Shown here: positions 4,574 to 23,236 of the stretch, in pieces | Position numbering within the stretch: position 1 is the first letter of the stretch | How the letters are laid out: each line of letters opens with the position of its first letter | NCBI GenBank assembly: GCA_025062195.1 | Contig: JANXAS010000008.1 | Coordinates: forward strand, 1-64,000 | Reading direction: 5' to 3' | Source of the DNA: Armatimonadota bacterium | Lineage (GTDB): Bacteria > Armatimonadota > Fervidibacteria > Fervidibacterales > Thermosaccharophagaceae | Length of the DNA: 64,000 nucleotides | Translations under genes and position numbers: made by a program | The notes under the pieces: generated by a model | Told to the model about the DNA's origin: nothing | Seen by the model: the letters and a program-made list of their open reading frames with translations, nothing else | Databases searched by the model: none

Positions 4574-5371
4574 TCAATTCTTTGCGATGCTGATGAGCCA
4601 GTCGCATATGCACCTTATGGCACTCCAAAATGGAGAAGCATCAACTTCGTCTAAAGGTGGAACGCCAGTTATCGCCTGCCCCCAAATGTTAACATCAAAT
4701 GGTATAAAGCACAGAAGCTGCACTTGCCTCTTCAATTTGCTGCACTCAGCTTCAACGAACGAGGCTATGGCGTTTGCTTCCTCATCATTGCGCACCTTGT
4801 TTCCAACGATTGCCACCTCTTTGATGCCCAACTCATGTGCGAGTGCGCATGCAGTGAGCGCTGTGCGCATGCTTGCAGCTGTTGGTTCTGTTACTATTAG
4901 CATGCCGTCAACATACATTGCGGTGCCCCTTGTAAGGTGCTCAATTCCAGCTGTCATATCCATTATCACAACTTCATCCCTCTCAAGCAGCAACCCCTGA
5001 ATGACTGCCCTTAGAAATGTATTCTCACGGCAGTAGCATTCTGACGCCGCCTTCTTAACCATGCCCATTCGCATTAACTTGATGCCCTCGCGAACTACAA
5101 CGAACTTCTCAAGGATGTCGTCAACCCTTGGATTGAGCACGAAATAAGGACCTACCCCACCAGTTCTCTCAATGATTAACTCTTTCAACTCAGCTATGGG
5201 TGCAATTTGGTCAACCTCTTCTGGCGGGAAGCCGAGCGCCATGCCAAGGTTGGCGTCCGGGTCCGCATCAACTGCATACACAGTGTAACCATACGAAGCC
5301 AGCATTCGTGACAGCGCTGCTGCAATTGTTGTCTTGCCGACACCGCCTTTGCCTGATATCGCAAACTTCAG
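4574..5371 (-). CDS. cooC: CooC-type nickel-insertion ATPase, copy 1 (proposed CTG start)
   Basis: MinD/CooC-family P-loop ATPase, expected to mature the nickel sites of CO dehydrogenase or acetyl-CoA synthase. It shows the deviant Walker A motif GKGGVGKTT at the N terminus, DADPDANLGMALG for switch I, a Cys-x-Cys pair (ECYCREN) at the position of the CooC metal-binding CXC, and DMTAGIEHLTRGT for Walker B. The track ORF starts at 5482, deep inside the upstream gene. AGGGGTGAT at about 5376-5385 stands four bases before a CTG at 5371. Reading CTG as Met gives MKFAISGKGGVGKTT, the canonical CooC N terminus, in a protein of about 265 residues. The alternative GTG at 5380 sits inside the ribosome binding site. 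The RACo stop lies one base upstream. Confidence 0.9.
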   Translation of the reverse strand: MKFAISGKGGVGKTTIAAALSRMLASYGYTVYAVDADPDANLGMALGFPPEEVDQIAPIAELKELIIERTGGVGPYFVLNPRVDDILEKFVVVREGIKLMRMGMVKKAASECYCRENTFLRAVIQGLLLERDEVVIMDMTAGIEHLTRGTAMYVDGMLIVTEPTAASMRTALTACALAHELGIKEVAIVGNKVRNDEEANAIASFVEAECSKLKRQVQLLCFIPFDVNIWGQAITGVPPLDEVDASPFWSAIRCICDWLISIAKN

Positions 5372-5372
5372 C

Positions 5373-7325
5373 TTAATCACCCCTTTTGTGTTTGACCGAT
5401 GGGAACTGCTGCAGGTCTGTGTGCGGTATAAAATTCGCCGATATGAACTCGCCCATGTAGCCTGGGTCAACGCTGAGTTCAATGTATGTCATCTTTGAAG
5501 CGATCCTGTGAGCCTCATCAAATGCAGCTTGTGAAAGCAAAGCAAGGCGAGCGCCTTTGACGGAACTGTTACCGAGAACGACGAACTTTTCTTCGGGCAA
5601 ATCCGGCAGCAAGCCAATTTCAATAGCCCTTCTCACATTCAAATGGCTCCCGAATGCGCCCGCAACAAAGATGCGCTTTATCTCGTCAATCCTCAGACCG
5701 ATTGAATTGAGCATAGACCTGAGCGCTGCATACACAGCAGCCTTTGAGCGTATCAAGTTTTTTATGTCGGCTTGCGTTATCGTGATGTCACGCCCTATGC
5801 CGGCATCTTGAGAGCGAACAAGCACAAACTCTATGTCGCCATCATCGTTTTGCCTCAGTTTGCCATTGCTTGGGTGTTCAACGAAATTGCCAGCCATGTC
5901 TATGATGCCGGCACGCTTCAACTCGGCGAGCAATTCAACAAGCCCAGAACCGCATATTCCAATTGGCTTTGCATCGCCTATGGTTTGGATGCTCACATCA
6001 AGCTCTGTTGGGTCAATCTTCACACCCGATATTGCGCCCCTTACGGAACGCATGCCACACTTTATCCCGCTGCCCTCAAATGCTGGACCTATGGAGCAGG
6101 CGCATGTCACCATGAAATCCCTGTTGCCAAGCACCATTTCACCATTCGTCCCCATGTCAATCAAAAGGGAGAGTTCGTCGCGCAGCACCATACCCGAGAC
6201 GAGTGTCCCAGCCACGATATCGCCGCCGACATAGCTGGCAACACATGGGAATGTGAATACATACCCGTCCTTGTGTATGGCAATCTCAACATCGCTTGCC
6301 CTAATTGGTGGGAATGCAGTCACAGCCGGTATGTATGGTTCTATGCGTATGTTCGTTGGGTCAATTCCGAGCAGAAGATGCGTCATGACGGTGTTGCCTG
6401 CAACAGTTGCACAGGCTATATCATCGTGCGATATGTTAAGGGAATTTGCAGCGTGCCTCAAAAGCGAATTGATAGTCCTCAGGGCAGCCTCGCGCAATTC
6501 ATTCAAGCCGTTAGCGTTGCGAGAGACATGCGCTATCCGGCTTATCACATCCTCTCCGAAGACAAACTGCTCGTTATACTTTGCCAGACGCTGAACCGTC
6601 TCAAATGTTTCTAAGTCAACAATATGAACGGTGACGGTCGTCGTCCCAACATCAATAGCAGCGCCGTAAACATGCTTTTCATCCTTCCCAGGGGTTATCC
6701 TTATGACTTCCCAGTGATCACAGCATTTAACCAGGGTGGCTGTCACTTCCCAGCCGCCAGCCCTTATAGCGGTTGGCAGTTGGCGAAGTGCATCTATGCT
6801 CACGCTTATTGGGCGCTCTGCGCCAAACCGAACTTGTGAAAATTCCCGTTTATCATTCAGCACTCGCTTCACAGCATTCAGCAGCCTTTTAAGATCGCTC
6901 ACATTGTCAGTGAGCGATGGCGGATGCATTTTTAGGTGCACTTTTATTGCCATTGGGCTTGGCGGGTAAACATTTAACCCGACCTCGTGCTCTGGCACTT
7001 CAAGCTCAATATGCTTGATTGCTTCCTCGGCAAATGTTACGCGTGACTCAATGGGGACTTCAACCACCAGATCATCAATCGGGAATGTTTGGCATGCGAG
7101 TGTATATCCTTCCGAACGCAACCTCTCACTGAGCGCTGCGGCTCTATCTGTCATGCGTGCCCTGCCGGAGAGCACACGCACAAGGCATTTCTCACATGTT
7201 CCCTCGCCACCGCATACGCTTGCTATCTCAATTCCGGCATCCCTTGCAGCCGAAAGGACGGATGTGCTCTCATCAACAAATATTGAGATGCCTTCCGGAA
7301 GGAACCGTATCCTGTTGAGCCGCAT
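5373..7325 (-). CDS. acsV: RACo-type corrinoid activation protein (2Fe-2S, ASKHA ATPase; DUF4445)
   Basis: Reductive activator of corrinoid proteins: it uses ATP to re-reduce accidentally oxidised Co(II) on the corrinoid iron-sulfur protein to Co(I). The N-terminal plant-type [2Fe-2S] domain has ligands in VCGGEGTCEKCLV and a fourth Cys in LACQTFP. A linker domain follows, then a large ASKHA-like ATPase/corrinoid-binding domain with AIDVGTTTVTVHIVDL, DMGTNGEMVLG, GPAFEGSGIKCGMR and GICGSGLVELLAEL. The 650-residue length fits RACo. ATG 7325 is chosen because GAGGTGA lies five bases before it; the GTG at 7334 overlaps that site. The position between two CooC genes in the acs cluster supports the role. 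The symbol follows acetogen usage and is less certain than the function. Confidence 0.92.
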   Translation of the reverse strand: MRLNRIRFLPEGISIFVDESTSVLSAARDAGIEIASVCGGEGTCEKCLVRVLSGRARMTDRAAALSERLRSEGYTLACQTFPIDDLVVEVPIESRVTFAEEAIKHIELEVPEHEVGLNVYPPSPMAIKVHLKMHPPSLTDNVSDLKRLLNAVKRVLNDKREFSQVRFGAERPISVSIDALRQLPTAIRAGGWEVTATLVKCCDHWEVIRITPGKDEKHVYGAAIDVGTTTVTVHIVDLETFETVQRLAKYNEQFVFGEDVISRIAHVSRNANGLNELREAALRTINSLLRHAANSLNISHDDIACATVAGNTVMTHLLLGIDPTNIRIEPYIPAVTAFPPIRASDVEIAIHKDGYVFTFPCVASYVGGDIVAGTLVSGMVLRDELSLLIDMGTNGEMVLGNRDFMVTCACSIGPAFEGSGIKCGMRSVRGAISGVKIDPTELDVSIQTIGDAKPIGICGSGLVELLAELKRAGIIDMAGNFVEHPSNGKLRQNDDGDIEFVLVRSQDAGIGRDITITQADIKNLIRSKAAVYAALRSMLNSIGLRIDEIKRIFVAGAFGSHLNVRRAIEIGLLPDLPEEKFVVLGNSSVKGARLALLSQAAFDEAHRIASKMTYIELSVDPGYMGEFISANFIPHTDLQQFPSVKHKRGD

Positions 7326-7526
7326 CAATGTCACCTCGTCAGCGCATTAGCATCACTGTGCGAGAGAGCGTGCCCATGCATTTGACGATGTCAGATCTGA
7401 GCATCAGTGTTGGAGACAAGAATTGTCTTTTGGTGCCCGTCATATATCCATTTTTGAGCATGCTGAAAGGGCAACTTTAACATAACGGCGCCAACTATGG
7501 TGAGCAGTTTGATCTGAAGCCATTGG

Positions 7527-8276
7527 TCATTCAAATATTCGTTGGGCTATTTCGCACACGGCTTTATATGCAGGGCTGTCTTTTGGGAGTTCGGTCAATG
7601 GTCGTCCCTCAATGTCACACTTGGTGATAAGTTCATCCTCAGGGATAACCCCGGCAATTTCTAACCTGGTCTTTTCAATCTCCTTCGAGAGCGCCTCAAC
7701 TGTTTTTTCTCCCGCCCTGTTTAGCACGAGGTATATCCTTCGCACATTCAGCTCAAGCGACTTAGATAGAGAAGCTATTCTGCTGGCGGAGCGTATGCCC
7801 TTTATCGTTGGGTCACTGGTTATGAGCAGGACATCAACATCCTGTGCGATTCGCCTGCTCAAATGTTCCATGCCGGCTTCATTGTCCATTACGAGGTAGG
7901 CATAGTTTGAGCGCAACCTCCCAATGAATTCGCGCAGCATCTGATTGGCAGCGCAGTAGCACCCTGGACCTTCCGGTCCTCCCATTGCAATTAGGTCAAC
8001 ATTATCTCCCTCAGTGATAACATCATGCAGTTGATATTCAACCATGCGCAACCTTGGTATGTTTGGCGATGGAGTTGCAGTGCGCGCCTGAGAGAGTATA
8101 TCAGCTATATAGCCGCTGACTTCCATACCGAGAGCCTCGTTCAAGTTTGAATTTGGGTCAGCGTCAATAGCCAGTATCGGTCCTCTACCGTTTTCAACAA
8201 GCCATCTTATGAGCAAGGCTGCAAGTGTTGTCTTGCCTGTGCCGCCTTTCCCAGCAATTGAGATATGCATTGTCAT
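7527..8276 (-). CDS. CooC-type ATPase, copy 2
   Basis: Second MinD/CooC-family ATPase of 249 residues. The N terminus is MHISIAGKGGTGKTTLAALL (deviant Walker A), then AIDADPNSNLNEALGM, a GPGCYCAANQ segment that keeps the CooC Cys-x-Cys pair, and VMDNEAGMEHLSRRIAQDV. It differs from copy 1 throughout, for example GTGKTT against GVGKTT, and is shorter at the C terminus. The two are therefore old paralogs, perhaps serving CO dehydrogenase and acetyl-CoA synthase separately; that division is inference. An AAGGGATGA site precedes ATG 8276. A 190-base gap separates it from RACo downstream and a 242-base gap from the DUF3786 gene upstream. Confidence 0.9.
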   Translation of the reverse strand: MTMHISIAGKGGTGKTTLAALLIRWLVENGRGPILAIDADPNSNLNEALGMEVSGYIADILSQARTATPSPNIPRLRMVEYQLHDVITEGDNVDLIAMGGPEGPGCYCAANQMLREFIGRLRSNYAYLVMDNEAGMEHLSRRIAQDVDVLLITSDPTIKGIRSASRIASLSKSLELNVRRIYLVLNRAGEKTVEALSKEIEKTRLEIAGVIPEDELITKCDIEGRPLTELPKDSPAYKAVCEIAQRIFE

Positions 8277-8518
8277 ATGTTCATCCCTTCTTTTGCACTT
8301 AAAGCCATCCGCATAATTTCGGTCTGTCTATGGTGATGAGCTGATTGTAAATGATGCCCGAATGTTCTCGCCAGAGCATGAAACAAGGTCCCATCAAAGA
8401 AAAGTTCGGCGCACTCTTAATCCCGCCCCCCATCACCTTTTGAGGATTGCAAGCTACGGTAGTCTATAACAATGCTTGCGTCGCTGCCACAGCCATAAGT
8501 ATTGTGAGTGATTCCACC

Positions 8519-9166
8519 CTACATTTTTGGTTTGGCAGCAGCTACAAGTTTTTCGGCCAAGTGCTCTCCGAGCACTGCCACATCCTCCGTTGTAAGGTAG
8601 CTTGATATGGATGAGTCGAAAAGGATGCTGATGCTTGCTGGCATCTCTTCATCCGCTGCCCAAAAGGCGATTATGATCGGCACCCTCGGCAGTGCCCATA
8701 TCCTCAATCCGACATCACCGTAGTTTACATCTTCTGCGCCAAGTTTCTTAGCAGCCTCGCGCAGCTTGCTTCCATCGTCATCCCCGAATACGCTTAAGAG
8801 CAGCTTCTTCACACGGCTATCAAAGCTCACATGATAGGCAATTCCTCCCGGAAGTTCCCTGAAATCAATTAACCTATCGGTGAGCGGCTTTCCGCTTGCT
8901 TGTGCAAGGTAGTGCAAAGCGAGTATCTTCAGGTGGATTGGGGCGCCTTCATCTGTCACGCACCTTACATCACAATCTGGCAGTGAGATCTCATAGACAT
9001 CGCCAAGCAAATTTAAGCTCACCTTTTGCTCTGCCTCAACGAGTTGCGCCCCGGCAAGTTCGCACTGCAATTTGATGTCAAGCTTACCCAAGCTTTCTTT
9101 GGCAAGTTCGTAAGCTATCCTATGCCCCTCGTGTTCATCTTTTGGGACATCGTTGAAAGTCTTCAT
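8519..9166 (-). CDS. DUF3786-family protein of the acs cluster
   Basis: A 215-residue soluble protein matching my memory of DUF3786, a family of unknown function that tends to lie near CO dehydrogenase and Wood-Ljungdahl genes in anaerobes. Recognisable parts are the helical start HRIAYELAKESLGKLD, the strands VSLNLLGDVYEISLPDCDV, the motif KILALHYLAQASGKPLTDRLIDFRELPGG read in short pieces, and a C-terminal part with PIIIAFWAADEEMPA and SSISSYLTTEDVAVLGE. No catalytic motif is obvious. It lies between cooC-like 2 and acsE on the same strand, so a role in corrinoid or metal-cluster handling is a reasonable guess, not a demonstrated one. The ATG at 9166 has only a distant GAGGGG site. Confidence 0.82.
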   Translation of the reverse strand: MKTFNDVPKDEHEGHRIAYELAKESLGKLDIKLQCELAGAQLVEAEQKVSLNLLGDVYEISLPDCDVRCVTDEGAPIHLKILALHYLAQASGKPLTDRLIDFRELPGGIAYHVSFDSRVKKLLLSVFGDDDGSKLREAAKKLGAEDVNYGDVGLRIWALPRVPIIIAFWAADEEMPASISILFDSSISSYLTTEDVAVLGEHLAEKLVAAAKPKM

Positions 9167-9310
9167 TGTGTTTTCTGCCCCTCGCAGCTTTGGGTGTAAA
9201 GATATAGATTGGCTTAGGGGGGCTTTGAACCGCGCCTTATTTGATCTACGGTTTCAATATTGCCATTTAGCTTTGTCGCAAAATAGAACACATGGGACAC
9301 CGTTATAGCT

Positions 9311-10189
9311 TCACACTTCAAGCCACGAGTGTGAATAGACGACTTTACCCATTAGCACCAATGTCGTCTTTGCATATATGCGCTCTTTCTCAGACAGCTC
9401 ATCCATGTTTGGCTTCTCTCCGTCCATTATGCGATGAACCAATTTCAGTATTTCCGGCATCTCGCCCCTCGCAAGCTTGATCAACTCATCGTCAAATGCG
9501 TTGACTATAGCGGCATCCAAACCATACTTCATGAGCATCGCAAGATATGTCCGATTCAGATGCGGGCGCAACTCGCTTGGAGTTCCATTTGAGACATTTG
9601 ATAAGCCAACGATGGACCTACATCCGGGAACGAGTTCTTTGAAGGCACTCATAAACTCAATCACGGAAACAACTTGCCCTATGTCGGCTGAAACCGGGGT
9701 GACAATTGGGTCAATTAAAATGTCCTCCGGTGAGACGCCCGCATCCGTAGCTCTTTGGACAAGCTCAACGCATAATGCGGCTCTTTCATCCGCGTCTCTC
9801 GGCATGCCTTCGGTGCCCCAAAGCAATCCAACCATTGCGGCATTATATGTTGTGGCGAGCGGAAGCATCCTCTCAAGTCTCTCGGGTTGAAGTGAAATTG
9901 AATTGATAAGTGCTTTGCCGCGATGCACCTTCAAGCCGGCTTCCATTGCATCTGGATTTGTTGTATCAAGCGATAGCGGAAGCTCAACAACCTCTTGAAC
10001 TGTCTTGACCATCCATTCCATAAGCTCTGGACCGTCTCTCCTCGCCGGTCCTATGTTGAGGTCAAGGTAATCCATCCCAGCTTCAGCTTGCTGCTTTGCA
10101 AGCTCCTGTATTGCGCTTGCATCACGATTCCTTATTGCAGCTCCTATCGTCTTGGACATGATGTTTATGTTCTCGCCTATAAGGATCAT
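9311..10189 (-). CDS. acsE: Methyltetrahydrofolate:corrinoid/iron-sulfur protein methyltransferase
   Basis: Moves the methyl group from methyltetrahydrofolate to Co(I) of the corrinoid iron-sulfur protein AcsCD, linking the methyl and carbonyl branches. It is a pterin-binding TIM barrel of 292 residues, against about 262 for the Moorella enzyme. The N terminus is MILIGENINIMSK. MDYLDLNIGPARRDGPELM, LSLDTTNPDAMEAGLKV, IDPIVTPVSADIGQV and VGLSNVSNGTPSE carry the pterin-binding and conserved Asp/Asn residues. The ATG at 10189 follows a GGGGTGGTT site. A 387-base gap separates it from acsC upstream, so the two may not share one tight translational unit. Confidence 0.95.
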   Translation of the reverse strand: MILIGENINIMSKTIGAAIRNRDASAIQELAKQQAEAGMDYLDLNIGPARRDGPELMEWMVKTVQEVVELPLSLDTTNPDAMEAGLKVHRGKALINSISLQPERLERMLPLATTYNAAMVGLLWGTEGMPRDADERAALCVELVQRATDAGVSPEDILIDPIVTPVSADIGQVVSVIEFMSAFKELVPGCRSIVGLSNVSNGTPSELRPHLNRTYLAMLMKYGLDAAIVNAFDDELIKLARGEMPEILKLVHRIMDGEKPNMDELSEKERIYAKTTLVLMGKVVYSHSWLEV

Positions 10190-10576
10190 CTTTAACCACC
10201 CCTGTATAATGGTGATTTTTTCTCTACCCTCGCACTACATCAGCTATCCTCCCACAGGAGTGACTTTAGACACGGCAGGGCTTACTCAAATTTGCCCCTA
10301 ATTTGCCCATAAGTTTTTCGGTGCTTATCCATCCATTCCGCTGGCTTCAGCCAGTGCTCGCTGGCGAAACGATGAGCGCAAATTCTCTCGGCGAGTTTTT
10401 TCATCGCACAAGGACGGTGCTCATGAATTTAGCGAGCGACCATGGTCTAAAGCCCATAGGATGGTTGTGAAAGAGTGTTCACCAACAGCATTTGCAGCAA
10501 AGAGCGTTTCACATCATCAAGAGCATCTTAAATTTGCGTTCGGCAACCTCTTCAGCAATAAAGGGGTGGCACAATC
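10190..10576. other. 387-base gap between acsE and acsC
   Basis: No convincing ORF on either strand; the plus-strand ORF 10461-10700 runs antisense into acsC. It contains a tight inverted repeat CTGGCT-TC-AGCCAG at 10341-10354 and the run GGCGAGTTTTTTC near 10400-10412. An inter-gene gap of this size inside a co-oriented pathway cluster leaves room for a separate promoter or a processing site for acsE; I see no clear -35/-10 pair. Confidence 0.5.
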
Positions 10577-11932
10577 TCAGGCAGCTTGCCATATAGTGCG
10601 CAAGTATGCGGGTATGTTAGCTGCCTCCCTCGGACCAACGAGTATCTCCCACTCGCCCCCGAGTTCCTCTTCAAGTGCGCCGCTCTCTGGCGCAAGGTAG
10701 CCTGGTATGATCAGCTTGCGATGTTTAACTTTGCTTTCAATCCCGCACTTCCTGACGAACGGCGCAATCACATCGGCAGTGAGTTTACCACCAGCCCATG
10801 CCGTCATCACTGATAGCCCTTCGGTATCCTTAACCAAAAGCCATGATGGCACTCGGCTGTTTTCTATCTCAGTTGAGACGAGGAAGTATGTCAGTGAAAA
10901 ATTGCAAGTCAAAAGCACCGGTGACTCTTCGTTTGGCTTACCTATCTCATAAATGCCCTCTTCAACCGCAAGTGGTCTTCTCGGGTCTGTGTAGATGTTC
11001 ATCCTTGCAAGCAAGAGTGGGTATAGCGAATGCCCTTGGAAATCCGAGAGAACTATTATGCCACCATACTTGGCGATGAATATCGCTCCGATGAATGTTT
11101 GCATCAGGAGGTCATCGCTCATCTCGCATGCCATAACGATTGTCGGAAAGCCAAGCTCTTTAACCTTGCCTACAAGGGCAGCTCTCCTCGCCATTATGTG
11201 ATGTGTAAATGCCTCCTTGAGCGAGCGTGCACCTGTGTCAATCAGCAGATCCTTTAATCCGGACTGCATCGCCATAGATGTCAACTTCGCAACGCCAATT
11301 AAGCCATTGCCCTTTATGGCAAGCGGGCATGTATACTCCTTTGCCAACTCAATCATCTCGTCAATATTCTCTTCAGTGGCTGCATAGATTAGCGGGCGCT
11401 TACCTTTGCATATTTCAAGTGCAGCTGCTTGTATTGATGGGTCGTAGCTGATAAGCATGATGCTGCAATCCGAACTGTTGGCAACTCGTCCAACCACATC
11501 GCCAAACCTATTAGGGTTGCCGGAATCGCACCTAAGCGCTGCCATTTCTGGGCGCAGGATAAACCCAGCCCTATCGTAAACCATCTTGTTGAGCTTATCA
11601 ATCCGGGCATCAATTTCGCTATCGTCCATTGCATCGCTTATGAGCATTGCTATCCCGGGTGGGTTGACGAATGTTTTCTCATGCCTGAAGAGAACCGTCT
11701 CACCACCAACTTTCACAACCCTTCCATCGCTGCCTATCACGACTTCCCTGATTGGGGGGGCAGCAACTTCAGAGAGCTTTTCTCTCGCCTCCTCAGAGAT
11801 GTATGGGCATGCATCAAGCTCAGCTTTCCCCTGTGCCAAGTTCATAGCAAATGCAAGGCATGTTGGCACACCGCATTCCCCGCAATTCTTTTTCGGCAAC
11901 AGCTTGAATATCTCAATACCGCTCAATGGCAT
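10577..11932 (-). CDS. acsC: Corrinoid iron-sulfur protein, large (gamma) subunit
   Basis: Large subunit of the corrinoid iron-sulfur protein that carries the methyl group from AcsE to acetyl-CoA synthase. The N-terminal domain binds a [4Fe-4S] cluster through NCGECGVPTCLAF and the later Cys of ELDACPY (C17, C20, C25, C42), the CdhE/AcsC pattern. A TIM-barrel region follows (MISYDPSIQAAALEICKG, LLIDTGARSLKEAFTHH). The C-terminal corrinoid-binding domain includes TAWAGGKLTADVIAPFVRKCG and IPGYLAPESGALEEELGG. At 451 residues it has the expected size. AAGGGGGCAT precedes the ATG. acsB lies 331 bases upstream, with a palindromic repeat in between. Confidence 0.96.
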   Translation of the reverse strand: MPLSGIEIFKLLPKKNCGECGVPTCLAFAMNLAQGKAELDACPYISEEAREKLSEVAAPPIREVVIGSDGRVVKVGGETVLFRHEKTFVNPPGIAMLISDAMDDSEIDARIDKLNKMVYDRAGFILRPEMAALRCDSGNPNRFGDVVGRVANSSDCSIMLISYDPSIQAAALEICKGKRPLIYAATEENIDEMIELAKEYTCPLAIKGNGLIGVAKLTSMAMQSGLKDLLIDTGARSLKEAFTHHIMARRAALVGKVKELGFPTIVMACEMSDDLLMQTFIGAIFIAKYGGIIVLSDFQGHSLYPLLLARMNIYTDPRRPLAVEEGIYEIGKPNEESPVLLTCNFSLTYFLVSTEIENSRVPSWLLVKDTEGLSVMTAWAGGKLTADVIAPFVRKCGIESKVKHRKLIIPGYLAPESGALEEELGGEWEILVGPREAANIPAYLRTIWQAA

Positions 11933-12263
11933 CGCTTATGCCCCCTTGAGTGTCCATGCAGAATGGCAGCACAGACGCTGTAAGTGGTGATAAAATGTGC
12001 CTTTACTACAAACTTTGTTGGTTAGGTTCGCATTTAGCCACCACCCGAAAGCGTAGTGGCGTCCTAAACCCGTTACTTGCCTCTTGTCCCGTTTCTTACC
12101 GCACTCCGCTTATCTCCGCACCTTACTACGAACCAACAAGCTTTTGAGCGAAGCACAAGAAAGCAAATACAGCAGCATGGACATATTGATGATTCAAGCG
12201 CTTAAAGCCCATGCGACTTTGATGCTCTCTGGCAAGATTGGTTTTTAAAAGAGCTGGCTCATA
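11933..12263. other. 331-base gap between acsB and acsC, filled by a palindromic repeat
   Basis: No gene is supported here. About half of the gap is copy A of the dispersed inverted-terminus repeat described separately at 12001-12153. The remaining bases, 12154-12263, run up to the acsB stop and show no strong hairpin with a T tract, so I cannot say that transcription ends here. Confidence 0.6.
12001..12153. repeat. Dispersed palindromic repeat, copy A (between acsB and acsC)
   Basis: The left end reads CTTTGTTGGTTAGGTTCG followed by CATTTAGCCAC. The right end reads CCTTACTACGAACCAACAAG, whose reverse complement CTTGTTGGTTCGTAGTAAGG mirrors the left end. The element is about 150 bp and non-coding, with imperfect inverted termini of about 20 bp. 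Related copies lie at 35911-36057, 36090-36249 and, as a half, 36253-36310. It looks like a MITE or REP-type element; no transposase is present in the window. Confidence 0.75.
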
Positions 12264-14468
12264 TTATCCGATTATCGGTGGCATCTCAAGCGCTGGGTGA
12301 CACTTCTCTTGCAAGTATGGCAATATCTCCTCCTCGGTAGTGCCGATTGTCTCATCGGCAATCATGTCAACCGTCATTCCTACCTCGGCGAGGCGCTTGA
12401 CCAACCTCTCACCCAACTCTTCCTTCAACATCTTCGGCATCCATACGAGCCTCTTAATTCCGCCATCTCCCTGCAGCCATTTTCTTTGCACAATCCAAAT
12501 CTTTGCGTGCCCGACAAATCCGGGCGTGCTAACGCCGCCACCTATTGTTCCAGCGAGTGTGGTGAACTTCATCCCGCATGGAGTCATTCCAGTGTATTCA
12601 CGGTTTACGGTCATGACACCGTTGCACAGGGGCAGAACTGCGGTTATGCATTCGCAACAGCCGCATGTCGTCATAGGTTTATCAACAACACTGTAGAAGT
12701 TGTAGCCATCAATTGCACCCCTTGAAGCTTTCCTGACGAACTCATTCACGCCCTTCCACGAACCTTTGAGTGAGTCCACGCATTCACCATATTGAACCGG
12801 TTGGTTTGGTCCCTCTGGGTTAACTTCATACATTGCCTTCGCATCAAGCCATGTATATGCTCCGCACAATCCGGGACGCTCTGGGCTAATTACACATACA
12901 TGCGTTGGCGCAAATGACTGGCAAAGCACACAAGAGTAAAATATATCCACATCCTCATCCTTCATGCCTTCCATGCGCGCATCCCTTGCATGGTATATTG
13001 TGCGTGCCTCGTCAAGCAGCTTGCGTACATCCTCTTCATTTGTGAATATGGTGACTTGGACTTTGTCCAATATGTTTCCGAAGTCCTGATGGAATCTTGC
13101 GTGCAATATCTCACCAATGTGCCTGAGCCTGAAGCCCTGGTTGAATGCGCTCCTGCTTATGCGCAACCAAACAATCTCGCGCTGCCCCATGTGGAAGACG
13201 CCCTGAGCGTAGTTGATGAAGTGGTGTATTTGCCGCTCAAGTATCGGTTCAAAGTCCTCCTGCATTTTTCTTCCGGCAACTTCAACAAGTGTTGCAAGTG
13301 GCATAGCGCTGCCTTCCTCAACTGCGTCAATGTCGGGGCCTATAATCTCAATCTTCCCGTCTTGCACCTCATCCATACGGCGCATCCTGCATAACTCAAG
13401 TGCGAGCGACCTTCCGCCACCAAATTCAACATACAAGTCGGCTTTGCGCACCCTTTCACCCTCAAATGCCGGTCCGTAAGCGACTGGCACTGGCACCTTT
13501 GTCACAGTTACCTTTAGACCGCGAACCTCAATTGCCTTTGAGACAATCTCAGAGTGCGGCACATTTGAAACAACATGCTCGTATGTGCAGATGCCTGTTG
13601 GCAGAACTTGAGGTATAGGGCTATCGGCTATCGTCGGGAAGCCCCAGTTTATTGCCCCAGCTGCATTAGCATACCATTCATCCGAAACGAAGCCGAGTGC
13701 AAGGACAAAAGCAAATATCCTGTCCTTATTGTAGATTAGGATGCGCCTATACTCACCTGGCTTTATCCCGCCAAAAGCCATTGCAGCCCTCGTTGCGAAG
13801 CCAACTGGGAACACAGTTGCAGATGTATCCGGACCAAATGGCACAAGGCGTGTTGTCCACCCAACCTGCACACCGGCTTCCACAAGCTGCTCTGCCATCC
13901 TGACACCGTTGTTATCCGAGCACATGAAGACATAGAGGTTCTTTTCCTGAAGTTCTCTGGCTATGAGAACCGCCGTCTCAACATCCGGTGGCGCACCAAG
14001 TATGGCTGCAAAGCCGGGCGCGGTGCCATCAACGAACTCAATGCCCCTCTTTCGCATGATGATGTCATCGGCTGCACCGAGCCAAATGTTCTCATCGGTT
14101 GGCTCCTCAGCGCCCGGCACATATGCATTTGGGTCCTCAAGATACTTGATCGCCTCAATTATTTCCTCGGCAAAGAATGTAGCCATGCCAGCATCAAGCG
14201 CCGGCGCAAGATATGGAAGGTGAACCTTCTCCCTGACAGGGGGTGGAAGCAGTCTCCTGCACAGTTTCAGGACTTGTTCCATATCGCCAAGCGTCCTAAC
14301 AGGTATTCCAGTTATGCCATAAATGATCGGCAAGTAATATGCTGTGTTTGGGAAGCCAACCTCTTGCTTAGCTCCCCACTTATCCATTGCCTCACGCCAC
14401 TTCTGCTCAGCCCTCGCCACTATCTTGTGTGCACCCCTAATTGCTGCAGAGCAGATCAGCTTTGACAT
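12264..14468 (-). CDS. acsB: Acetyl-CoA synthase, CODH/ACS complex subunit (bacterial type)
   Basis: Condenses CO, a methyl group from the corrinoid protein, and CoA to acetyl-CoA at the nickel-containing A-cluster. At 734 residues it has the bacterial length, with the N-terminal CODH-docking domain that archaeal CdhC lacks. The A-cluster ligands are visible: YSCVLCQSFAPTHVC and RPGLCGAYTW around residues 510-535, and the Cys-Gly-Cys that holds the proximal nickel in MTTCGCCECI near 598. TPGFVGHAKIWIVQRKWLQG and LPYLQEKCHPAL complete the C-terminal domain. The start is preceded by GGAGGGGTGA. cooS lies 96 bases upstream on the same strand. Confidence 0.98.
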   Translation of the reverse strand: MSKLICSAAIRGAHKIVARAEQKWREAMDKWGAKQEVGFPNTAYYLPIIYGITGIPVRTLGDMEQVLKLCRRLLPPPVREKVHLPYLAPALDAGMATFFAEEIIEAIKYLEDPNAYVPGAEEPTDENIWLGAADDIIMRKRGIEFVDGTAPGFAAILGAPPDVETAVLIARELQEKNLYVFMCSDNNGVRMAEQLVEAGVQVGWTTRLVPFGPDTSATVFPVGFATRAAMAFGGIKPGEYRRILIYNKDRIFAFVLALGFVSDEWYANAAGAINWGFPTIADSPIPQVLPTGICTYEHVVSNVPHSEIVSKAIEVRGLKVTVTKVPVPVAYGPAFEGERVRKADLYVEFGGGRSLALELCRMRRMDEVQDGKIEIIGPDIDAVEEGSAMPLATLVEVAGRKMQEDFEPILERQIHHFINYAQGVFHMGQREIVWLRISRSAFNQGFRLRHIGEILHARFHQDFGNILDKVQVTIFTNEEDVRKLLDEARTIYHARDARMEGMKDEDVDIFYSCVLCQSFAPTHVCVISPERPGLCGAYTWLDAKAMYEVNPEGPNQPVQYGECVDSLKGSWKGVNEFVRKASRGAIDGYNFYSVVDKPMTTCGCCECITAVLPLCNGVMTVNREYTGMTPCGMKFTTLAGTIGGGVSTPGFVGHAKIWIVQRKWLQGDGGIKRLVWMPKMLKEELGERLVKRLAEVGMTVDMIADETIGTTEEEILPYLQEKCHPALEMPPIIG

Positions 14469-14564
14469 CTTGAGTTCACCCCTCCACGATGAGTTGCTTT
14501 GAACTTGAGTTTAAAAACTTCCCGCTGGCTTAGGTATCAACTCACAATCTTCGCCCATCAAATT

Positions 14565-16508
14565 TCAAACCGCCTCTAACTGTCGCCTCATAGCCATATC
14601 AAACAGGATTCTCTCTCTCGCCTTGTCAATGCCCAATGCCTTGCGCCTCTCATCAATATGCTTTATCATCAACTTAGCCATCTCCTCCGGGTCTGGCTCA
14701 AATGCCCACTTAGCCTTGAACAGCTTTTCCATATCGCTGAATAGCCAGTTGGAGACAGTTTCGTTTCCAAGTGTGGGATAATGGACACCAAAGACCGTAA
14801 ATACGCCCGAGGCAACAAAATACATCCCTATTGCTATCGCCTTCTCAGACATCCATTCAGGCGCAGCACCAGCTGCCGGTAGGTCACTTATGTCATCTCC
14901 TAAGCCACCCTCTTTGACCATTGCAGTTGCTGCAATCAATATTCGGCTGTTGTCAACGCATGAACCCATGTGCAGGACTGGCGGAATCCCAACTGCTTCG
15001 CAAACCTCTCCAAGACCGTCACCTGCATACCTCAAGGCTTCATCCGGATTCATCAATCCGGCTTTAGCACACGCCATAGCTGCACAGCCAGTCTCAAGAA
15101 CAAGAACATCATTCTTGATGAGCTCCTTTACAAGCGTCACTATTGCGCTATCTTGAGTCACCCTCGGGTTGTTGCATCCAACCACACCGGCAACCCCTCT
15201 TATGCGCCCATTGATGATGTTGTCGTTAAGAGGGCGATAAGAAGCCCTGAACAGCCCGCCAAGCAAATAGGTGATTGTCTCATGGCTGAAGCCAGCTACA
15301 AAGTCAACGGCATAGTTCGGCACATAGCCGTTCCCACCGCGCTTTGCGAACTCTTCAATGGCAATCTCAATGAGCTTCCTTGCGGACTCAAGTGCATTGT
15401 GCTCGTTAAACTCAATGTGGGTTGCTCCGCTTATCTTCGCCTTTGGTGAAGTTGTTATGATGCGCCCGTGATAACATTCGGCTATCTCTGGCAGAGATTG
15501 CATTACGCACTGCACATCCACAACCATAGCATCAACTACACCGGTGAGGAGGGCAACCTCTTGCTGCAGGAAGTTGCCGGCTAATGGTATGCCGTGGCGC
15601 ATCAGCACCTCATTTGCTGTGCAGCATATCCCAGCTATGTTGATTCCCTTTGCGCCCTTGCTCCTTGCAAGCTCAACAAGCCTTTGCTCCCTTGAAGCGA
15701 GCACGACCATCTCTGAGAGCAATGGTTCGTGACCATGCACGATAATGTTGACATGGTCTGGCTTCAGGACGCCAAGGTTGACTTGGCTCACAGTTGGGTA
15801 TGGTGTGCCAAAGAGCACATCTTGAATTTCGGTTGCGAGCATTGAGCCACCCCAACCGTCAGCAAGAGCTACCCTTACAGCATGCAGGAGCAAGTTCTCA
15901 TAATCTTGGTCAGTGCCCATGTGCGTCCTGTGCAGTGCTTCAGTTATCTCCCTGTCAATACCCCTTGGGACGACTCCAAGTTCTCGCCAAAGTTGTTGGC
16001 GGCGCAGCGGGGCTCGCTTTATGAACAGTAGTTCGCCCTCCTGCTTCCCATACTCTTCAAGAGCTATCTTGGCTACATCCCTTGCTATGTCTTCAATATT
16101 GCGCCCCGATATTTCAACCCCGAAGTCCATGGCGAGCTTGACCAACTTCATCTCGTCCTTGATTTGGTAATCCCTCGTCTCACCGTTAGCGACAGCGAGC
16201 AAAAGTCTGGCTGCAGCCCTTCCATGGTCTGCGTGCGCTGCGCATCCGGCTGCCACTATGCGAAGGTAATTCCTTGCCACAACTGTATCTTGAGTTGCGC
16301 CGCATACGCCTCTCGGTGGCTCCTCACCTTTGCGTGCCACCAAACGGCATGGCCCCATAGCGCACAGCTTGCAGCAAATTCCATCCCTGCCTATTGGGCA
16401 TGGGCGCATTGCCTCAGCCCTGTCAAAGGCTGTCATAACGCCATCCTTTTTAGCCCGCTCAAGCATTTCAACTACAGCAGGATCTGCACTGTAATTGCTT
16501 TGCGACAC
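14565..16508 (-). CDS. cooS: Anaerobic Ni-Fe carbon monoxide dehydrogenase catalytic subunit
   Basis: Interconverts CO2 and CO at the C-cluster; in this context (also called acsA) it feeds CO through a tunnel to AcsB. The 647-residue length is typical. Near the N terminus, PCPIGRDGICCKLCAMGPCR and RGVCGA supply the B- and D-cluster cysteines (C37, C45, C46, C49, C54, C69). C-cluster and proton-path elements are VHGHEPLLSEMV, GICCTANEVLMRHG, VQCVMQS, VVGCNNPR, ETGCAAMACAKAGLM and MGSCVDNSRI. The GTG start follows GGAAGGTGATT at the right distance. Flanked by acsB and acsD, it is most likely the ACS-partner type and not a free-standing energy-converting CODH. Confidence 0.97.
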   Translation of the reverse strand: MSQSNYSADPAVVEMLERAKKDGVMTAFDRAEAMRPCPIGRDGICCKLCAMGPCRLVARKGEEPPRGVCGATQDTVVARNYLRIVAAGCAAHADHGRAAARLLLAVANGETRDYQIKDEMKLVKLAMDFGVEISGRNIEDIARDVAKIALEEYGKQEGELLFIKRAPLRRQQLWRELGVVPRGIDREITEALHRTHMGTDQDYENLLLHAVRVALADGWGGSMLATEIQDVLFGTPYPTVSQVNLGVLKPDHVNIIVHGHEPLLSEMVVLASREQRLVELARSKGAKGINIAGICCTANEVLMRHGIPLAGNFLQQEVALLTGVVDAMVVDVQCVMQSLPEIAECYHGRIITTSPKAKISGATHIEFNEHNALESARKLIEIAIEEFAKRGGNGYVPNYAVDFVAGFSHETITYLLGGLFRASYRPLNDNIINGRIRGVAGVVGCNNPRVTQDSAIVTLVKELIKNDVLVLETGCAAMACAKAGLMNPDEALRYAGDGLGEVCEAVGIPPVLHMGSCVDNSRILIAATAMVKEGGLGDDISDLPAAGAAPEWMSEKAIAIGMYFVASGVFTVFGVHYPTLGNETVSNWLFSDMEKLFKAKWAFEPDPEEMAKLMIKHIDERRKALGIDKARERILFDMAMRRQLEAV

Positions 16509-16566
16509 CTTTAATCACCTTCCCTAACAAGCAGAGTGACTGCGCCAAAAGCGCTTCGCACGCTGC

Positions 16567-17514
16567 TTAAGCGTTCCTCAATTCGTTTAAAGCCCTTCGG
16601 ACAAGCGCCACTGCGTCCGGGTGACGCATGATGAGTATATCAGCACCGGCAAGTGCAAGCAGCATTGCCGTGATTGCCTCCATAAGCACGCCTCTTTCTT
16701 TTGCTTTCCCAAGCAGAGGCGCTTCTTCTTCTCTCAACTTGGCTTCCCTTGTGCCCCACACCTCCTTTGCGACATTGCAAATCATTGGGAAGGCAAGCCT
16801 TTCATCCTCATGAAGCAATGCTGCAATCCTGATTCGTTCCATAACCGAGTATGAGTATTCAATTCCGTAACCGAGTCCGCCTACAGTTGGGTCAATCAAT
16901 ATCTGCTCATCCGGCACACCGAGGTTTGAGAGCAATATGTTTAGCTGCTTTGAAAGATTGATGTCAATCGGTGTGGATGCAGCCACAACTTGCCCATAGG
17001 CTATTGCCTGTGCTCCAACCCTTGCATAAATTTTCTCAACGACGGGTCCGACAACTATACGCTTTCCCTCGCACAACTCGCAAACAAGCCTGAGTGTCTC
17101 CATATCCTTTGCTTCATTGCCGCATCCCCAGACTATGAGCGGCACATCAATTGCATCAGCAACTTGCTTTGCTACCTTTGCCGCTTCCTCAGATGGTCTA
17201 TCAATGCCATACGGGTCGGTGCTGACAAGCTGTAAGCAAATCATCTCAGCCCCAAATTGCTCAATGCATTTTCTTGCCCATGCAATCGGGTCATTTAGGA
17301 CATCGCCATAGACTTCAAGCAAAGCCTCCGCCCACCCTTCTGGCGGATAATCATACACATCCATTGCTATTCGGATTGGGTTTGGCATCTCCCCCTCAAA
17401 TGTGTAAAACGGAAGGCAGCTCTCACCGCCAACCTTTATAGCCCTATCATTGGAGCCGATCACAATTTCCCTTATTTGACCGATATAAGTCTCCTTTGGG
17501 ATATTCAAGTCCAT
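16567..17514 (-). CDS. acsD: Corrinoid iron-sulfur protein, small (beta) subunit
   Basis: Small TIM-barrel subunit that pairs with AcsC to hold the corrinoid (CdhD/AcsD family). It contains YIGQIREIVIGSNDRAIKVGG, the same opening seen in AcsC as REVVIGSDGRVVKVGG, then CLQLVSTDPYGIDRP, VPLIVWGCGNEAKDMETL, ILIDPTVGGLGYGIEY and GADILIMRHPDAV. About 315 residues, the usual size. The ORF extends to a GTG at 17538, but GGGGTG lies seven bases before the ATG at 17514 (MDLNIPKETY), so that start is chosen. cooS follows 58 bases downstream; a 72-codon ORF precedes it. Confidence 0.95.
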   Translation of the reverse strand: MDLNIPKETYIGQIREIVIGSNDRAIKVGGESCLPFYTFEGEMPNPIRIAMDVYDYPPEGWAEALLEVYGDVLNDPIAWARKCIEQFGAEMICLQLVSTDPYGIDRPSEEAAKVAKQVADAIDVPLIVWGCGNEAKDMETLRLVCELCEGKRIVVGPVVEKIYARVGAQAIAYGQVVAASTPIDINLSKQLNILLSNLGVPDEQILIDPTVGGLGYGIEYSYSVMERIRIAALLHEDERLAFPMICNVAKEVWGTREAKLREEEAPLLGKAKERGVLMEAITAMLLALAGADILIMRHPDAVALVRRALNELRNA

Positions 17515-17580
17515 CGTTTTGCACCCCGCCTTTTTCACAGTTTGCTCTGCTATGAGGCAACGAAGGATGGGTTTGCAAGA

Positions 17581-17799
17581 CTAAGCGGGTGTTTTGCGTT
17601 TCTCAGAGCCATACCATTCAGTGCTATACCAGTAGCGCTCAGCATAGCTAAGGTATTTTTCGATCTCTTCAATGGTCTGCAACTTACGCTTCCAATTGCC
17701 CTCCTCTTCCGGCTGTGGTTTTCCAGGTTCGTATGTCTCGCCAAGTATTTCAACATCAATGCCATCAAAACGCTTCCTTCGTTCTATGGGAAATTCCAC
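17581..17799 (-). CDS. Small hypothetical protein at the head of the acs cluster
   Basis: A 72-residue, highly charged and aromatic-rich ORF: MEFPIERRKRFDGIDVEIL, then EEEGNWKRKLQTIEEIEKYL and YWYSTEWYGSEKRKTPA. The GTG start has an excellent GGGAGTGA site six bases upstream, and the gene ends 66 bases before the acsD start on the same strand, so it is probably translated and cotranscribed with acsD-cooS-acsB. No hydrophobic segment, no Cys and no family recognised. It may be a regulatory or assembly protein of the complex; that is a guess from position only. The competing minus-strand frame 17550-17768 has no ribosome binding site. Confidence 0.65.
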   Translation of the reverse strand: MEFPIERRKRFDGIDVEILGETYEPGKPQPEEEGNWKRKLQTIEEIEKYLSYAERYWYSTEWYGSEKRKTPA

Positions 17800-17961: not shown

Positions 17962-18756
17962 TTAAGCGTTAGTAAACCTTTGCAGCATCACAAAAGCCAG
18001 CAATGATGTGACTTCGCATACTTCAACGATTGCCCCATAGCAATCGCCCGTCAGACCGCCAAACCTTCTTACCAATCGCCAAGAGATGAGAATGCTCAAA
18101 GCAACGCATTGCCACATGCAAATATGTCCCGCATAGCTGGCACAAATTTGCGTTGCGGCTGCTGTGTATATCGTTGCAGCAACAGTTTGTCCTATTCTAT
18201 GCCCCCTTAAGTGATAGGCTATGCCCTCTTCTGAGCGGGCATAGGGGAAAAGGAACATTGAGACCACAGCGCTATATCTTCCAAACATCGGTGATAACAG
18301 AATTGCAGTCCATCTCCAATTCGGTTCAAGCGAAACTATGAGCGCATACTTGAGCAGGAGCACGATGAATATGCCTGCAGCTCCGAAGGCGCCAATTTGT
18401 GGCTCTCGCATCACTTTGAGTTGCTCTTCACCGGACTTTCGGCTGCCAATTGCATCTATTAAATCTGCCAGCCCATCAAGGTGAAGCCCGCCTGTGATGA
18501 TCACGAACATGCTAACAGTTATGGCGCTCACGACACTCATCGGCACAAGCGAAAGCAATACGCTGTCAGCTGTGGCTACGACAGCGCCGATGATTAGCCC
18601 AACGAGTGGGAAAAGCCATCCGCATACCTTTATGGCATCCTTTGGACATAGCCCGTGAACCGGCACGACCGTGAGGAATGAAACGGCGCAAAACAGGGCG
18701 CCCACATGCAGCCTAATTACCTCGCGCATTCGCAGCAGTATAGCTTTTAAGCTCAT
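17962..18756 (-). CDS. cobS: Adenosylcobinamide-GDP ribazoletransferase (cobalamin synthase)
   Basis: Integral membrane enzyme that joins adenosylcobinamide-GDP with alpha-ribazole phosphate, the last step of B12 assembly. The N-terminal FLTVVP motif and the family signature GGLHLDGLADLIDAIGSRKS are present, followed by LLKYALIV and RRFGGLTGDCYGA near the C terminus. Several hydrophobic helices run through about 264 residues. The ORF runs back to 18834 inside cobT. The ATG at 18756 starts just after the cobT stop and gives the usual N terminus, so it is used here. It is the last gene of the cobU-cobT-cobS run. Confidence 0.95.
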   Translation of the reverse strand: MSLKAILLRMREVIRLHVGALFCAVSFLTVVPVHGLCPKDAIKVCGWLFPLVGLIIGAVVATADSVLLSLVPMSVVSAITVSMFVIITGGLHLDGLADLIDAIGSRKSGEEQLKVMREPQIGAFGAAGIFIVLLLKYALIVSLEPNWRWTAILLSPMFGRYSAVVSMFLFPYARSEEGIAYHLRGHRIGQTVAATIYTAAATQICASYAGHICMWQCVALSILISWRLVRRFGGLTGDCYGAIVEVCEVTSLLAFVMLQRFTNA

Positions 18757-18760
18757 ATGC

Positions 18761-19825
18761 TCATGCCACCGGACCTGAGACACCAGCCTCATCAAATGTA
18801 GCCATCTGAGAGAGCAGCTTGCACGCCGCATCAATCACATGCATGGCAAGGACAGCACCAGTCCCTTCGCCAAGGCGCATGTTTAGATTCAATATCGGCT
18901 CAAGCCCAATCCAGTCAAGCAATAGGCGGTGCCCCGGCTCCAACGAGATGTGCCCAGCGAACATGTAGCCCTGCACAAGCGGTTGCATTCTGAAGGCAAT
19001 TGCTGCAGCAGCAGTTGTGATGAATCCGTCAAGCACAACCGGTATTCGCCTTGCCGCACACGCTATCACAACGCCAACAAGTGCTCCTATTTCAAACCCG
19101 CCAACTTTGGAAAGAACTTCAATTGGGTCATCTGGGTTTGGGCGATGCAAGTTCAAAGCAGTTTCAATGACAGCGACCTTATGCTCATAGCGTTCATCAT
19201 CTAAACCCGTGCCCCTCCCCGTTACCTCTCTTGCTGGCTTTCCCATCAGCGCTGCCGCGATCGCCGCGCTTGGTGTCGTATTGCCTATCCCCATGTCACC
19301 GAGGGCAATCATGCGCACACCTTCATTGACGAGCATCTCGGTTATCTCAACGCCTATGCCGATAGCTTCCAAGGCTTGCTCACGAGTCATTGCTGGCTCG
19401 GTTGAGAGATCTCTTGTGCCCCACGCTATTTTCCTCAAGATGAGACCTTCATGCTGCGGCAGCTCCGCGGCAACCCCAACATCAATCACTATAAGCTTTG
19501 CGCCACAATGCCTGCTCAGCACGCTTATTGCTGCCCCGCCACGAACAAAGTTCATCACCATCTGCGCTGTAACTTCCTTAGGGTAAAGGCTCACGCCTTG
19601 AGCCACAACACCGTGATCGGCTGCAAATACAACTACAGCCTTCTTTTCCACATCCGGCATTGTCATGCCGGTTATTCCGGCAATGCGCACGGCAATCTCT
19701 TCAAGCCTGCCGAGGCTCCCAAGCGGCTTTGTGAGCTTATTCTCCCGCTCCCTTGCCTTAGCCATAGCGAGTTCGTCCAACGGCTTTATAGCCTCCAAAA
19801 TTGCCCGAAGCCTTTCCTCCTTCAT
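18761..19825 (-). CDS. cobT: Nicotinate-nucleotide--dimethylbenzimidazole phosphoribosyltransferase
   Basis: Makes alpha-ribazole phosphate from nicotinate mononucleotide and the lower-ligand base for B12. The family blocks are LTKPLGSLGRLEEIAVRIAG, VFAADHGVVAQGVSLYP, MIALGDMGIGNTTPSAAI, GRGTGLDD, VLDGFITTAAA and the catalytic-glutamate loop RLGEGTGAVLAM. The 354-residue length is standard. GGAGGGGTGGTGA precedes the ATG. The gene lies between cobU, with a 158-base gap, and cobS, almost adjacent, so cotranscription with cobS is likely. Confidence 0.97.
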   Translation of the reverse strand: MKEERLRAILEAIKPLDELAMAKARERENKLTKPLGSLGRLEEIAVRIAGITGMTMPDVEKKAVVVFAADHGVVAQGVSLYPKEVTAQMVMNFVRGGAAISVLSRHCGAKLIVIDVGVAAELPQHEGLILRKIAWGTRDLSTEPAMTREQALEAIGIGVEITEMLVNEGVRMIALGDMGIGNTTPSAAIAAALMGKPAREVTGRGTGLDDERYEHKVAVIETALNLHRPNPDDPIEVLSKVGGFEIGALVGVVIACAARRIPVVLDGFITTAAAAIAFRMQPLVQGYMFAGHISLEPGHRLLLDWIGLEPILNLNMRLGEGTGAVLAMHVIDAACKLLSQMATFDEAGVSGPVA

Positions 19826-19983: not shown

Positions 19984-20508
19984 TCATCCACAACCCTTCA
20001 AACAAATTGGTATGCCAGCACAAAGCCAGTAGACACAATCAGCACCTGAGGCAAGCTTTTGATTTGCTTCTCCCAGCAGGTCTCTGAAGCGCCTGCCAAT
20101 AGGCGTTGCCGGAACAATTCCCATGCCAACTTCGTTGCTCACGATAATGGTATTGCATCTGCGCTCCTTACACGCTTTAAGCAGCCTCTCAACGGCGCAC
20201 AATATGGCATCATCATCTGCCTCAGCTGCAATGAGATTGGTGAGCCAAAGCGTGATGCAATCAATGACCACAACTTCAAACTCATCGCCATGCTCATCAA
20301 TCCATTCGGATACGCAAATTGGTTCTTCAATGGTCAGCCATTCTTTTGGGCGAGAACGCCTGTGCATCTCAATTCGCCTTTCCATCTCATCATCCGTGCG
20401 TGCTGCGGTGGCTATAAATGCCACTCTCGCATTGCCCTTTGCAAGTTCAACTGCAAATCTGCTTTTGCCGCTGCGCGCCCCACCAAGAAGCAATGTGATC
20501 AATCCCAA
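19984..20508 (-). CDS. cobU: Adenosylcobinamide kinase / adenosylcobinamide-phosphate guanylyltransferase
   Basis: Bifunctional enzyme that phosphorylates adenosylcobinamide and then activates it with GTP. It has the P-loop GGARSGKSRFAVELA at the very start, ATAARTDDEMERRIEMHRR, VVIDCITLWLTNLI and the IIVSNEVGMGIVPATPIGRRF block that marks CobU. The track ORF begins at 20535, but GGGGTG followed eight bases later by TTG (20508) gives MGLITLLLGGARSGKS, closer to family N termini; the next TTG (20502) is also possible. About 174 residues. It shares strand with cobT, cobS and the BtuF-like gene 90 bases upstream. Confidence 0.94.
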   Translation of the reverse strand: MGLITLLLGGARSGKSRFAVELAKGNARVAFIATAARTDDEMERRIEMHRRSRPKEWLTIEEPICVSEWIDEHGDEFEVVVIDCITLWLTNLIAAEADDDAILCAVERLLKACKERRCNTIIVSNEVGMGIVPATPIGRRFRDLLGEANQKLASGADCVYWLCAGIPICLKGCG

Positions 20509-20598
20509 GATGCTCACACCCCGATATTGCAGCACCGGTGTTATGCTCCATTAGTATGGGAAACAAAGTTGGCATGCCCACGGCACAGCGTTGCTTGA

Positions 20599-21528
20599 TC
20601 ACTTATGCCCGTGAAGAAGACGATGTAGTTCAGCTATCCCCAGTGTGATTCTTGGTCCCGGTCTGAAAATCAAATCGGCATCAATCGCATACACCCTGCC
20701 TGTGCGCACCGCTTTGAGTTGCTCAAAGCCGACCCTTCCCTTCACCTCTGAGAAAGCCTTGGCTGAATTAAGGCGACCGTGCCTCGCCAAAATGTAGACA
20801 TCGGGGTTAAGCGTCATTAGCGCCTCAAGGCTAACTGTTGGGAACTCACTCCTTGGCTTGAGTTGCCTCAGAATGTTGTATCCGCCAGCAAGTCCAATGG
20901 CGTCATCAATGAAGTTGTTAATCCCAACACCCATAAGGCTTGGTGGTGGTGATACCTCAATGAATACGCTCGGCTTCCTCTTGAGCTTTGATTGGGATGC
21001 CTTGATCCGCCTTATTTCAGAGCGCATTCTGTTGGCAAGCGATTTTGCCTCCCTGTATTTCCCGACAAGTTTTCCGATCCTCTCAACAGCGCTCGTTATG
21101 TCAATCACCCTTTTTGGGGACATGACGAATATTGGCGCACGGACTTTACCCTCAAGCGCTTCAACTTCGCTGATGGGGAGCACAACTGATGCCAGCACAA
21201 TCAAATCGGGATTGTGCTTTACTACAGCCTCAATATTTGGGCGCATGAAAGGTCCCACCCTCGGCAGGCGGCGGACTTCAGGGGGGTAGTCAGACCAATC
21301 GTCAACGGCAACGACAGACCTTCCGGCGCCTATGGCAAATAGTAGCTCTGTAGTGCTCGGTGAGAGCGATATGATACGTTTTGGTGACCTGTTGAGTTTG
21401 ATAAATCTTCCCAAATCATCCTTGACGACTTGCTGCAGCTGTTGTGCTTTGACAGTGTGGAGCCAGAAGGTCAGTGCCATCAAAACCTTCACTATACGCA
21501 TGGGGGTTGATTGTTCTCGGCTGCTCAA
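20599..21528 (-). CDS. BtuF-like periplasmic cobalamin (corrinoid) binding protein
   Basis: Substrate-binding protein of an ABC importer, family of helical-backbone metal/B12 receptors. There is an N-terminal signal (IVKVLMALTFWLHTVKAQQ), then VKDDLGRFIKLNRSPKRIISLSPSTTELLFAIGAG, which is typical of BtuF, VGPFMRPNIEAVVKHNPDLIV and SLEALMTLNPDVYIL. The TTG at 21528 is kept because AAAGGGTGA lies six bases upstream; the inner ATG at 21501 has none. No BtuC permease or BtuD ATPase is in the window, so its transporter is elsewhere or shared. Siderophore or haem binding cannot be excluded by sequence alone, but the neighbouring cobU-cobT-cobS and the upstream cobalamin riboswitch favour corrinoids. 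Confidence 0.85.
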   Translation of the reverse strand: MSSREQSTPMRIVKVLMALTFWLHTVKAQQLQQVVKDDLGRFIKLNRSPKRIISLSPSTTELLFAIGAGRSVVAVDDWSDYPPEVRRLPRVGPFMRPNIEAVVKHNPDLIVLASVVLPISEVEALEGKVRAPIFVMSPKRVIDITSAVERIGKLVGKYREAKSLANRMRSEIRRIKASQSKLKRKPSVFIEVSPPPSLMGVGINNFIDDAIGLAGGYNILRQLKPRSEFPTVSLEALMTLNPDVYILARHGRLNSAKAFSEVKGRVGFEQLKAVRTGRVYAIDADLIFRPGPRITLGIAELHRLLHGHK

Positions 21529-22683: not shown

Positions 22684-22889
22684 TACAGCACACCTCCATT
22701 GGCTTTGTTTTGGGTTATGCTGCACAACTTGCAGCCGATGGTTTAAATGGGATTATGGTTCCGACAGAGTGAGGGGCACTTATGCATAAGCTCGTTTGTT
22801 GCAGATAGCAAGCGACGATGGGGAAGCAGCTGCCCTTAGTTCACGAGGGAGCCAGTTATCTGTATCGCAATGCGGTGCACAAAATAACT

Positions 22890-23215: not shown

Positions 23216-23236
23216 CCTGATACAAGGGTGAGAAGC

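Follow-up and report, generated by a model that had tools for sequence, protein, structure and literature searches.

A Dehalococcoidia/Desulfobacterota-type CODH/ACS island beside a riboswitch-led B12-salvage block in an Armatimonadota genome

An intact and probably working CODH/ACS island of the Dehalococcoidia/Desulfobacterota type, located next to a riboswitch-led B12-salvage block, was found in a presumed anaerobe of a small phylum, the Armatimonadota. The island was probably obtained by horizontal transfer, either shared with or parallel to that in a distant phylum-mate (G005). Judging from sequence, we assign this reading a probability of about 0.75. The window, that is, the whole stretch of DNA analysed, covers 64 kb of a 76-kb contig (G000:C159) from a 3.42-Mb MAG of 170 contigs, which is 96.95% complete and 0.55% contaminated. 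The new observation is that the window genome and G005 carry this ACS type with acsV and cooC moved downstream, whereas most other ACS-bearing phylum-mates carry a Moorella-like ACS instead.

The complete carbonyl branch is encoded by nine full-length genes, all on the minus strand from 17538 to 4574, in the order acsD-cooS-acsB-acsC-acsE-DUF3786-cooC-acsV(RACo)-cooC. The run starts with acsD (16567-17538; PF03599; NF003376, 399 bits, cut-off 280) for the CFeSP small subunit, followed by cooS/acsA (14565-16508; TIGR01702, 683 bits, cut-off 478) for the Ni CO dehydrogenase and acsB (12264-14468; NF040764, 1086 bits, cut-off 800) for a 734-aa bacterial-type acetyl-CoA synthase. The CFeSP large subunit gene acsC (10577-11932; NF003195, 610 bits) and acsE (9311-10189; NF005719, 263 bits), encoding a 292-aa methyl-THF:CFeSP methyltransferase, come next, and then a DUF3786 gene (8519-9166; PF12654, 165 bits). 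The last three genes are cooC1 (7527-8276), for a nickel-insertion ATPase, acsV/RACo (5373-7334), for the reductive activator of the corrinoid protein (RACo_C_ter, 337 bits, with Raco_middle, linker, and Fer2 domains), and a cooC2/acsF-like gene (4574-5482) that overlaps acsV. Both ATPases are of the CbiA/MinD type with a CYC motif, and cooC1 was annotated with a P-loop.

Metal ligands were verified by residue position and by comparison with solved structures. The A cluster of AcsB is intact (C513, C516, C525, C535, and C602-G-C604), and CooS retains the cysteines of the D cluster (C37, C45), the B cluster (C46, C49, C54, C69), and the C cluster (C295/C296, C334, C445, C475, C517). The N-terminal CxxCxxxxC and C42 of AcsC, the 2Fe-2S cysteines of AcsV, and the P-loop and CxC of both CooC proteins are likewise present. 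AcsB contains the CODH_A_N, CdhC, and ACS_CODH_B_C domains, an architecture that is bacterial and not archaeal owing to its N-terminal CODH-binding domain, and solved acetyl-CoA synthases align with it end to end. AcsC is aligned over its full length by chain A of 2h9a, and AcsE aligns with 2yci, although it exceeds the 262 aa of the solved chains by approximately 30 aa. An earlier note on this DNA had described a complete, bacterial-type carbonyl branch on one strand, with AcsD, CooS, AcsB, AcsC, AcsE, a RACo activator, two CooC ATPases, DUF3786, and intact diagnostic ligands. All nine genes could be matched to families at full length, and no cysteine of the A, B, C, and D clusters or of the corrinoid protein was missing. 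The span that it gave, 4574-17799, was right at the 4574 end and too long at the other, where the acs run stops at 17538 and no island gene lies in 17538-17799.

The same note had proposed a search for methyl-branch and formate dehydrogenase genes. Single-family searches of the MAG contigs recovered all of them, fhs, folD, metF with metV, and fdh, on contigs other than the acs contig. On contig C114, fhs, metF, and metV lie together, with a [NiFe] hydrogenase (small and large subunits and maturation protease) between fhs and metV-metF; folD is on C115, and an NAD-type formate dehydrogenase arranged as NuoE-NuoF-NuoF-FdhA is on C93. One genome thus holds fdh, fhs, folD, and metF beside the carbonyl branch. 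An ADP-forming acetyl-CoA synthetase scored over its cut-off, and neither acetate kinase nor heme-copper oxidase (COX1) had a match in the genome. Also on C114, close to a gene for an MtaA/CmuA-like methyltransferase and the fhs-metFV cluster, a minus-strand gene (locus L034, 17619-19949) encodes a 776-aa protein with two stretches weakly similar to QueG/reductive dehalogenases.

Measured against the established pathway, the gene set amounts to a complete Wood-Ljungdahl pathway (WLP) in an organism without a heme-copper oxidase; its direction and use are what we infer. From the gene content, the likeliest physiology would be anaerobic, H2/formate-linked acetogenesis. CO2 would be converted via formate to methyl-THF, and AcsE would transfer the methyl group from there to AcsCD, the corrinoid protein that AcsV would hold in the reduced state. 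CooS would reduce CO2 to CO, and AcsB would join methyl, CO, and CoA into acetyl-CoA. The product may enter biosynthesis or be converted by the ADP-forming synthetase to acetate with a gain of ATP, and the electrons may come from H2 or formate.

A mainly oxidative pathway, serving acetate or syntrophic oxidation or CO use, seems rather unlikely, although several observations agree with it. Sulfate reducers and syntrophs are among the sources of the closest ACS homologues in the best 80 named loci, acetate kinase is missing from the matches in this genome, and hydrogenases can work in either direction, as can NAD-linked formate dehydrogenase. However, the ADP-forming acetyl-CoA synthetase agrees with a route to acetate like that proposed for Hebobacteria (PMC10290634), and the lack of a match for heme-copper oxidase, the respiratory enzyme searched for, also speaks against oxidation. 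According to the same study, published in 2023, the Armatimonadota lineages Hebobacteria and Zipacnadia have a complete or nearly complete WLP and group-4 hydrogenases, like the window genome, and the AcdAB-type acetate formation of Hebobacteria resembles its ADP-forming synthetase.

Elsewhere in the genome, a formate-hydrogenlyase-like cluster on C148 (locus L139) includes a HycE-like large subunit of a group-4 [NiFe] hydrogenase (1704-1, minus strand). Its frame reads FLAERI-TGA-GI-TGA-GFIHS, in which an in-frame TGA codon takes the place of each of the two L1 nickel-ligand cysteines (UxxU), and from there continues without interruption through DPCFSC to the end of the contig. When the TGA codons are read through, the protein matches PF00346, PF00329, and NiFeSe_Hases and shares approximately 40% identity with HycE and with annotated large subunits of hydrogenases. 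A SECIS-like hairpin with a GGU apical loop lies 17 bases past the second TGA (-16 kcal/mol, z -3.0), and the genome contains a tRNA-Sec with anticodon TCA. A double-selenocysteine nickel ligand set is probable from these features. The accessible part of a 2026 review of prokaryotic selenoproteins gives [NiFeSe] subunits as UxxC or CxxU and contains no UxxU hydrogenase, and no second genome with one was seen among the loci compared. We regard this enzyme as a strong lead rather than a result. Tentatively, a lineage whose sampled relatives of the same taxonomic order lack ACS may have become an anaerobic acetogen by gaining a Dehalococcoidia/Desulfobacterota-type corrinoid and CODH/ACS block, with the pathway driven or balanced by the UxxU membrane group-4 [NiFe] hydrogenase; we consider this possible but doubtful.

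The block upstream of the island, absent from the earlier note, is also on the minus strand. A cobalamin riboswitch (22995-23194; RF00174, 90.5 bits), just preceded by a promoter-like site (23265-23237, 10/12), is followed by a pseudopilin-like gene, a btuF-like substrate-binding protein gene (20599-21528; PF01497), cobU (19984-20535; PF02283), cobT for the lower-ligand phosphoribosyltransferase (18761-19825; PF02277), cobS for cobalamin synthase (17962-18834; PF02654), and then the acs run. This block fits the B12 requirement of AcsCD. With 423 bases between cobS and acsD, a single riboswitch-cob-acs transcript would be no more than a possibility. The pseudopilin-like gene (21874-22725), between the riboswitch and the B12 genes, encodes a DUF1559-like protein with a pseudopilin-type N-terminus, one of several proteins with such an N-terminus encoded here and in L160 (11225-14781). 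Within 22500-24500, gene strand and GC skew flip next to parB, at approximately 23 kb, a pattern like that around replication origins.

Gene order was compared with the 80 named loci most similar to the window (AcsB relatives from Chloroflexota, Desulfobacterota, and similar groups), a choice that biases donor sampling. The core order acsD-cooS-acsB-acsC-acsE was found in 34 of these best 80, and acsB-acsC-acsE in 65 of them. Loci with the same core include those of Dehalococcoidia W156 (L055), Dehalococcoidales bin896 (L109), and a Syntrophaceae member (L063), whose AcsB proteins are 67-72% identical to that of the window; AcsE is of the longer kind in L055 as well (291 aa). Some Dehalococcoidia/Desulfobacterota loci also have DUF3786 after acsE. 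They differ from the window in host phylum and in the position of acsV/cooC, which, where found, is usually upstream of acsD and not downstream of DUF3786. Among the loci compared, cooC-acsV-cooC downstream of DUF3786 is common only to the window and G005 (L036). This phylum-mate has the same nine genes in the same order, but belongs to a different family and has a GC content of 58%; its acsD and cooS are separated by a NuoEFG-like block, and its island has fhs at the 3' end. The Moorella order is cooS-acsB-acsC-acsV-(cooC)-acsD-acsE. It is shared by the clusters of most other ACS-bearing phylum-mates (L041-L053), which encode the same enzyme set as the window but whose AcsB is only 51-57% identical; acsC and acsV are adjacent in most of those examined and in none of the best 80 named loci. 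In two further phylum-mates (G244, L039; G241, L040), open frames of 1129-1133 aa encode AcsB with an AcsD-like domain joined to its C-terminus, and the protein encoded beside it is CooS-like (37-39% identity) but has only some 400 aa.

The DUF3786 gene comes after acsE not only in the window but also in G005 and 11 of the best 80 named loci, and this neighbourhood is conserved in several phyla. The AlphaFold prediction has a mean pLDDT of 93, and a Foldseek search returned no PDB match at E values up to 0.001, nor was there any sequence match. Invariant residues among 11 sequences include H85, R118, D172, E174, E194, and D195 and no cysteine; a role in assembly or protein-protein contact is more likely than one as a cysteine-based metallochaperone. 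A literature search found no account of DUF3786 in acs clusters, and the term was met only in the context of DNA methylation.

AcsB matches were found in 43 of the 291 phylum genomes (35 over the cut-off) and in none of the four genomes of the same taxonomic order. The closest AcsB proteins, among the best 80 named loci and the phylum-mates, are those of G005 (73%), Dehalococcoidia (72-73%), and other Chloroflexota (down to 70%), and then Desulfobacterota. In trees that included no cultured acetogen, AcsB of the window paired with that of G005 (SH-aLRT 98) amid Chloroflexota and unclassified sequences, with 17 other phylum-mates outside this set. The same pair appeared for AcsC (support 91) and AcsE (support 98), while the positions of CooS and AcsD, within the same ACS type, were poorly resolved. 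Core gene order and AcsB placement thus both assign the island to the Dehalococcoidia/Desulfobacterota type and not to the Moorella type. Since this order and the closest relatives are common in Dehalococcoidia and sulfate reducers, the carrier is new but the system is already known.

These comparisons modify several claims of the earlier note. The order does differ from that of Moorella, as it had stated, but is nothing new; with 34 of the best 80 named loci sharing it, what had looked unusual is ordinary for another ACS lineage. The phylogeny that it had suggested joined the window to G005 for AcsB, apart from 17 other phylum-mates, and for AcsC, and resolved CooS poorly. GTDB kinship places the genome in a phylum of 291 genomes, which, as far as phylum size tells, is neither Bacillota nor Desulfobacterota. 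A notable new spread of ACS into this phylum can no longer be claimed, given the 43 genomes with matches and the WLP already published for Armatimonadota (PMC10290634); in Chloroflexi, the WLP with CODH/ACS has also been described (PMC5736913).

An ancestral, vertically inherited ACS of the window type, lost from most lineages of the phylum or exchanged there for the Moorella-like version, is unlikely. It would account for the nine-gene order and the AcsB, AcsC, and AcsE pairings shared with G005, a member of another family. In contrast, AcsB and CobT are both missing from all four relatives of the same taxonomic order, most other ACS-bearing phylum-mates differ in ACS type and gene order, and a single phylum clade was rejected (p-AU 0.0166). 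Horizontal transfer is preferred. Foreign composition was considered as a sign of transfer and was not seen (GC 0.498 in the acs region and 0.493 elsewhere); because the composition of the acs region equals that of the rest of the genome, any transfer must be old. An empty insertion site was sought in the same-order relatives, where only an HD-ispE pair and cpn60 were recovered, synteny insufficient to define a site.

Binning error, in which a co-sampled member of the Dehalococcoidia or Desulfobacterota would be the source of the acs contig, is highly improbable: AcsB is equally near Dehalococcoidia and G005, as this would allow, but the tetranucleotide composition of the acs region agrees with the remainder of the window and with four further contigs of this MAG (r = 0.82-0.92; 0.72 for the short cob block) and disagrees with two Dehalococcoidia loci (0.41-0.45), the HD-ispE pair on the acs contig is also adjacent in same-order relatives, one of which has a cpn60 71% identical to the copy on this contig, and the MAG also supplies the methyl-branch genes needed for a full pathway. 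Contamination thus appears unlikely.

At least two separate lineages of acetyl-CoA synthase occur in the small phylum, so that finding ACS in a member is no evidence of simple vertical inheritance of an ancient pathway. DUF3786, with a well-defined predicted fold that matches nothing solved, becomes a concrete candidate for a CODH/ACS assembly factor. The genome also represents a candidate acetogen, with the full pathway readable within a single MAG.
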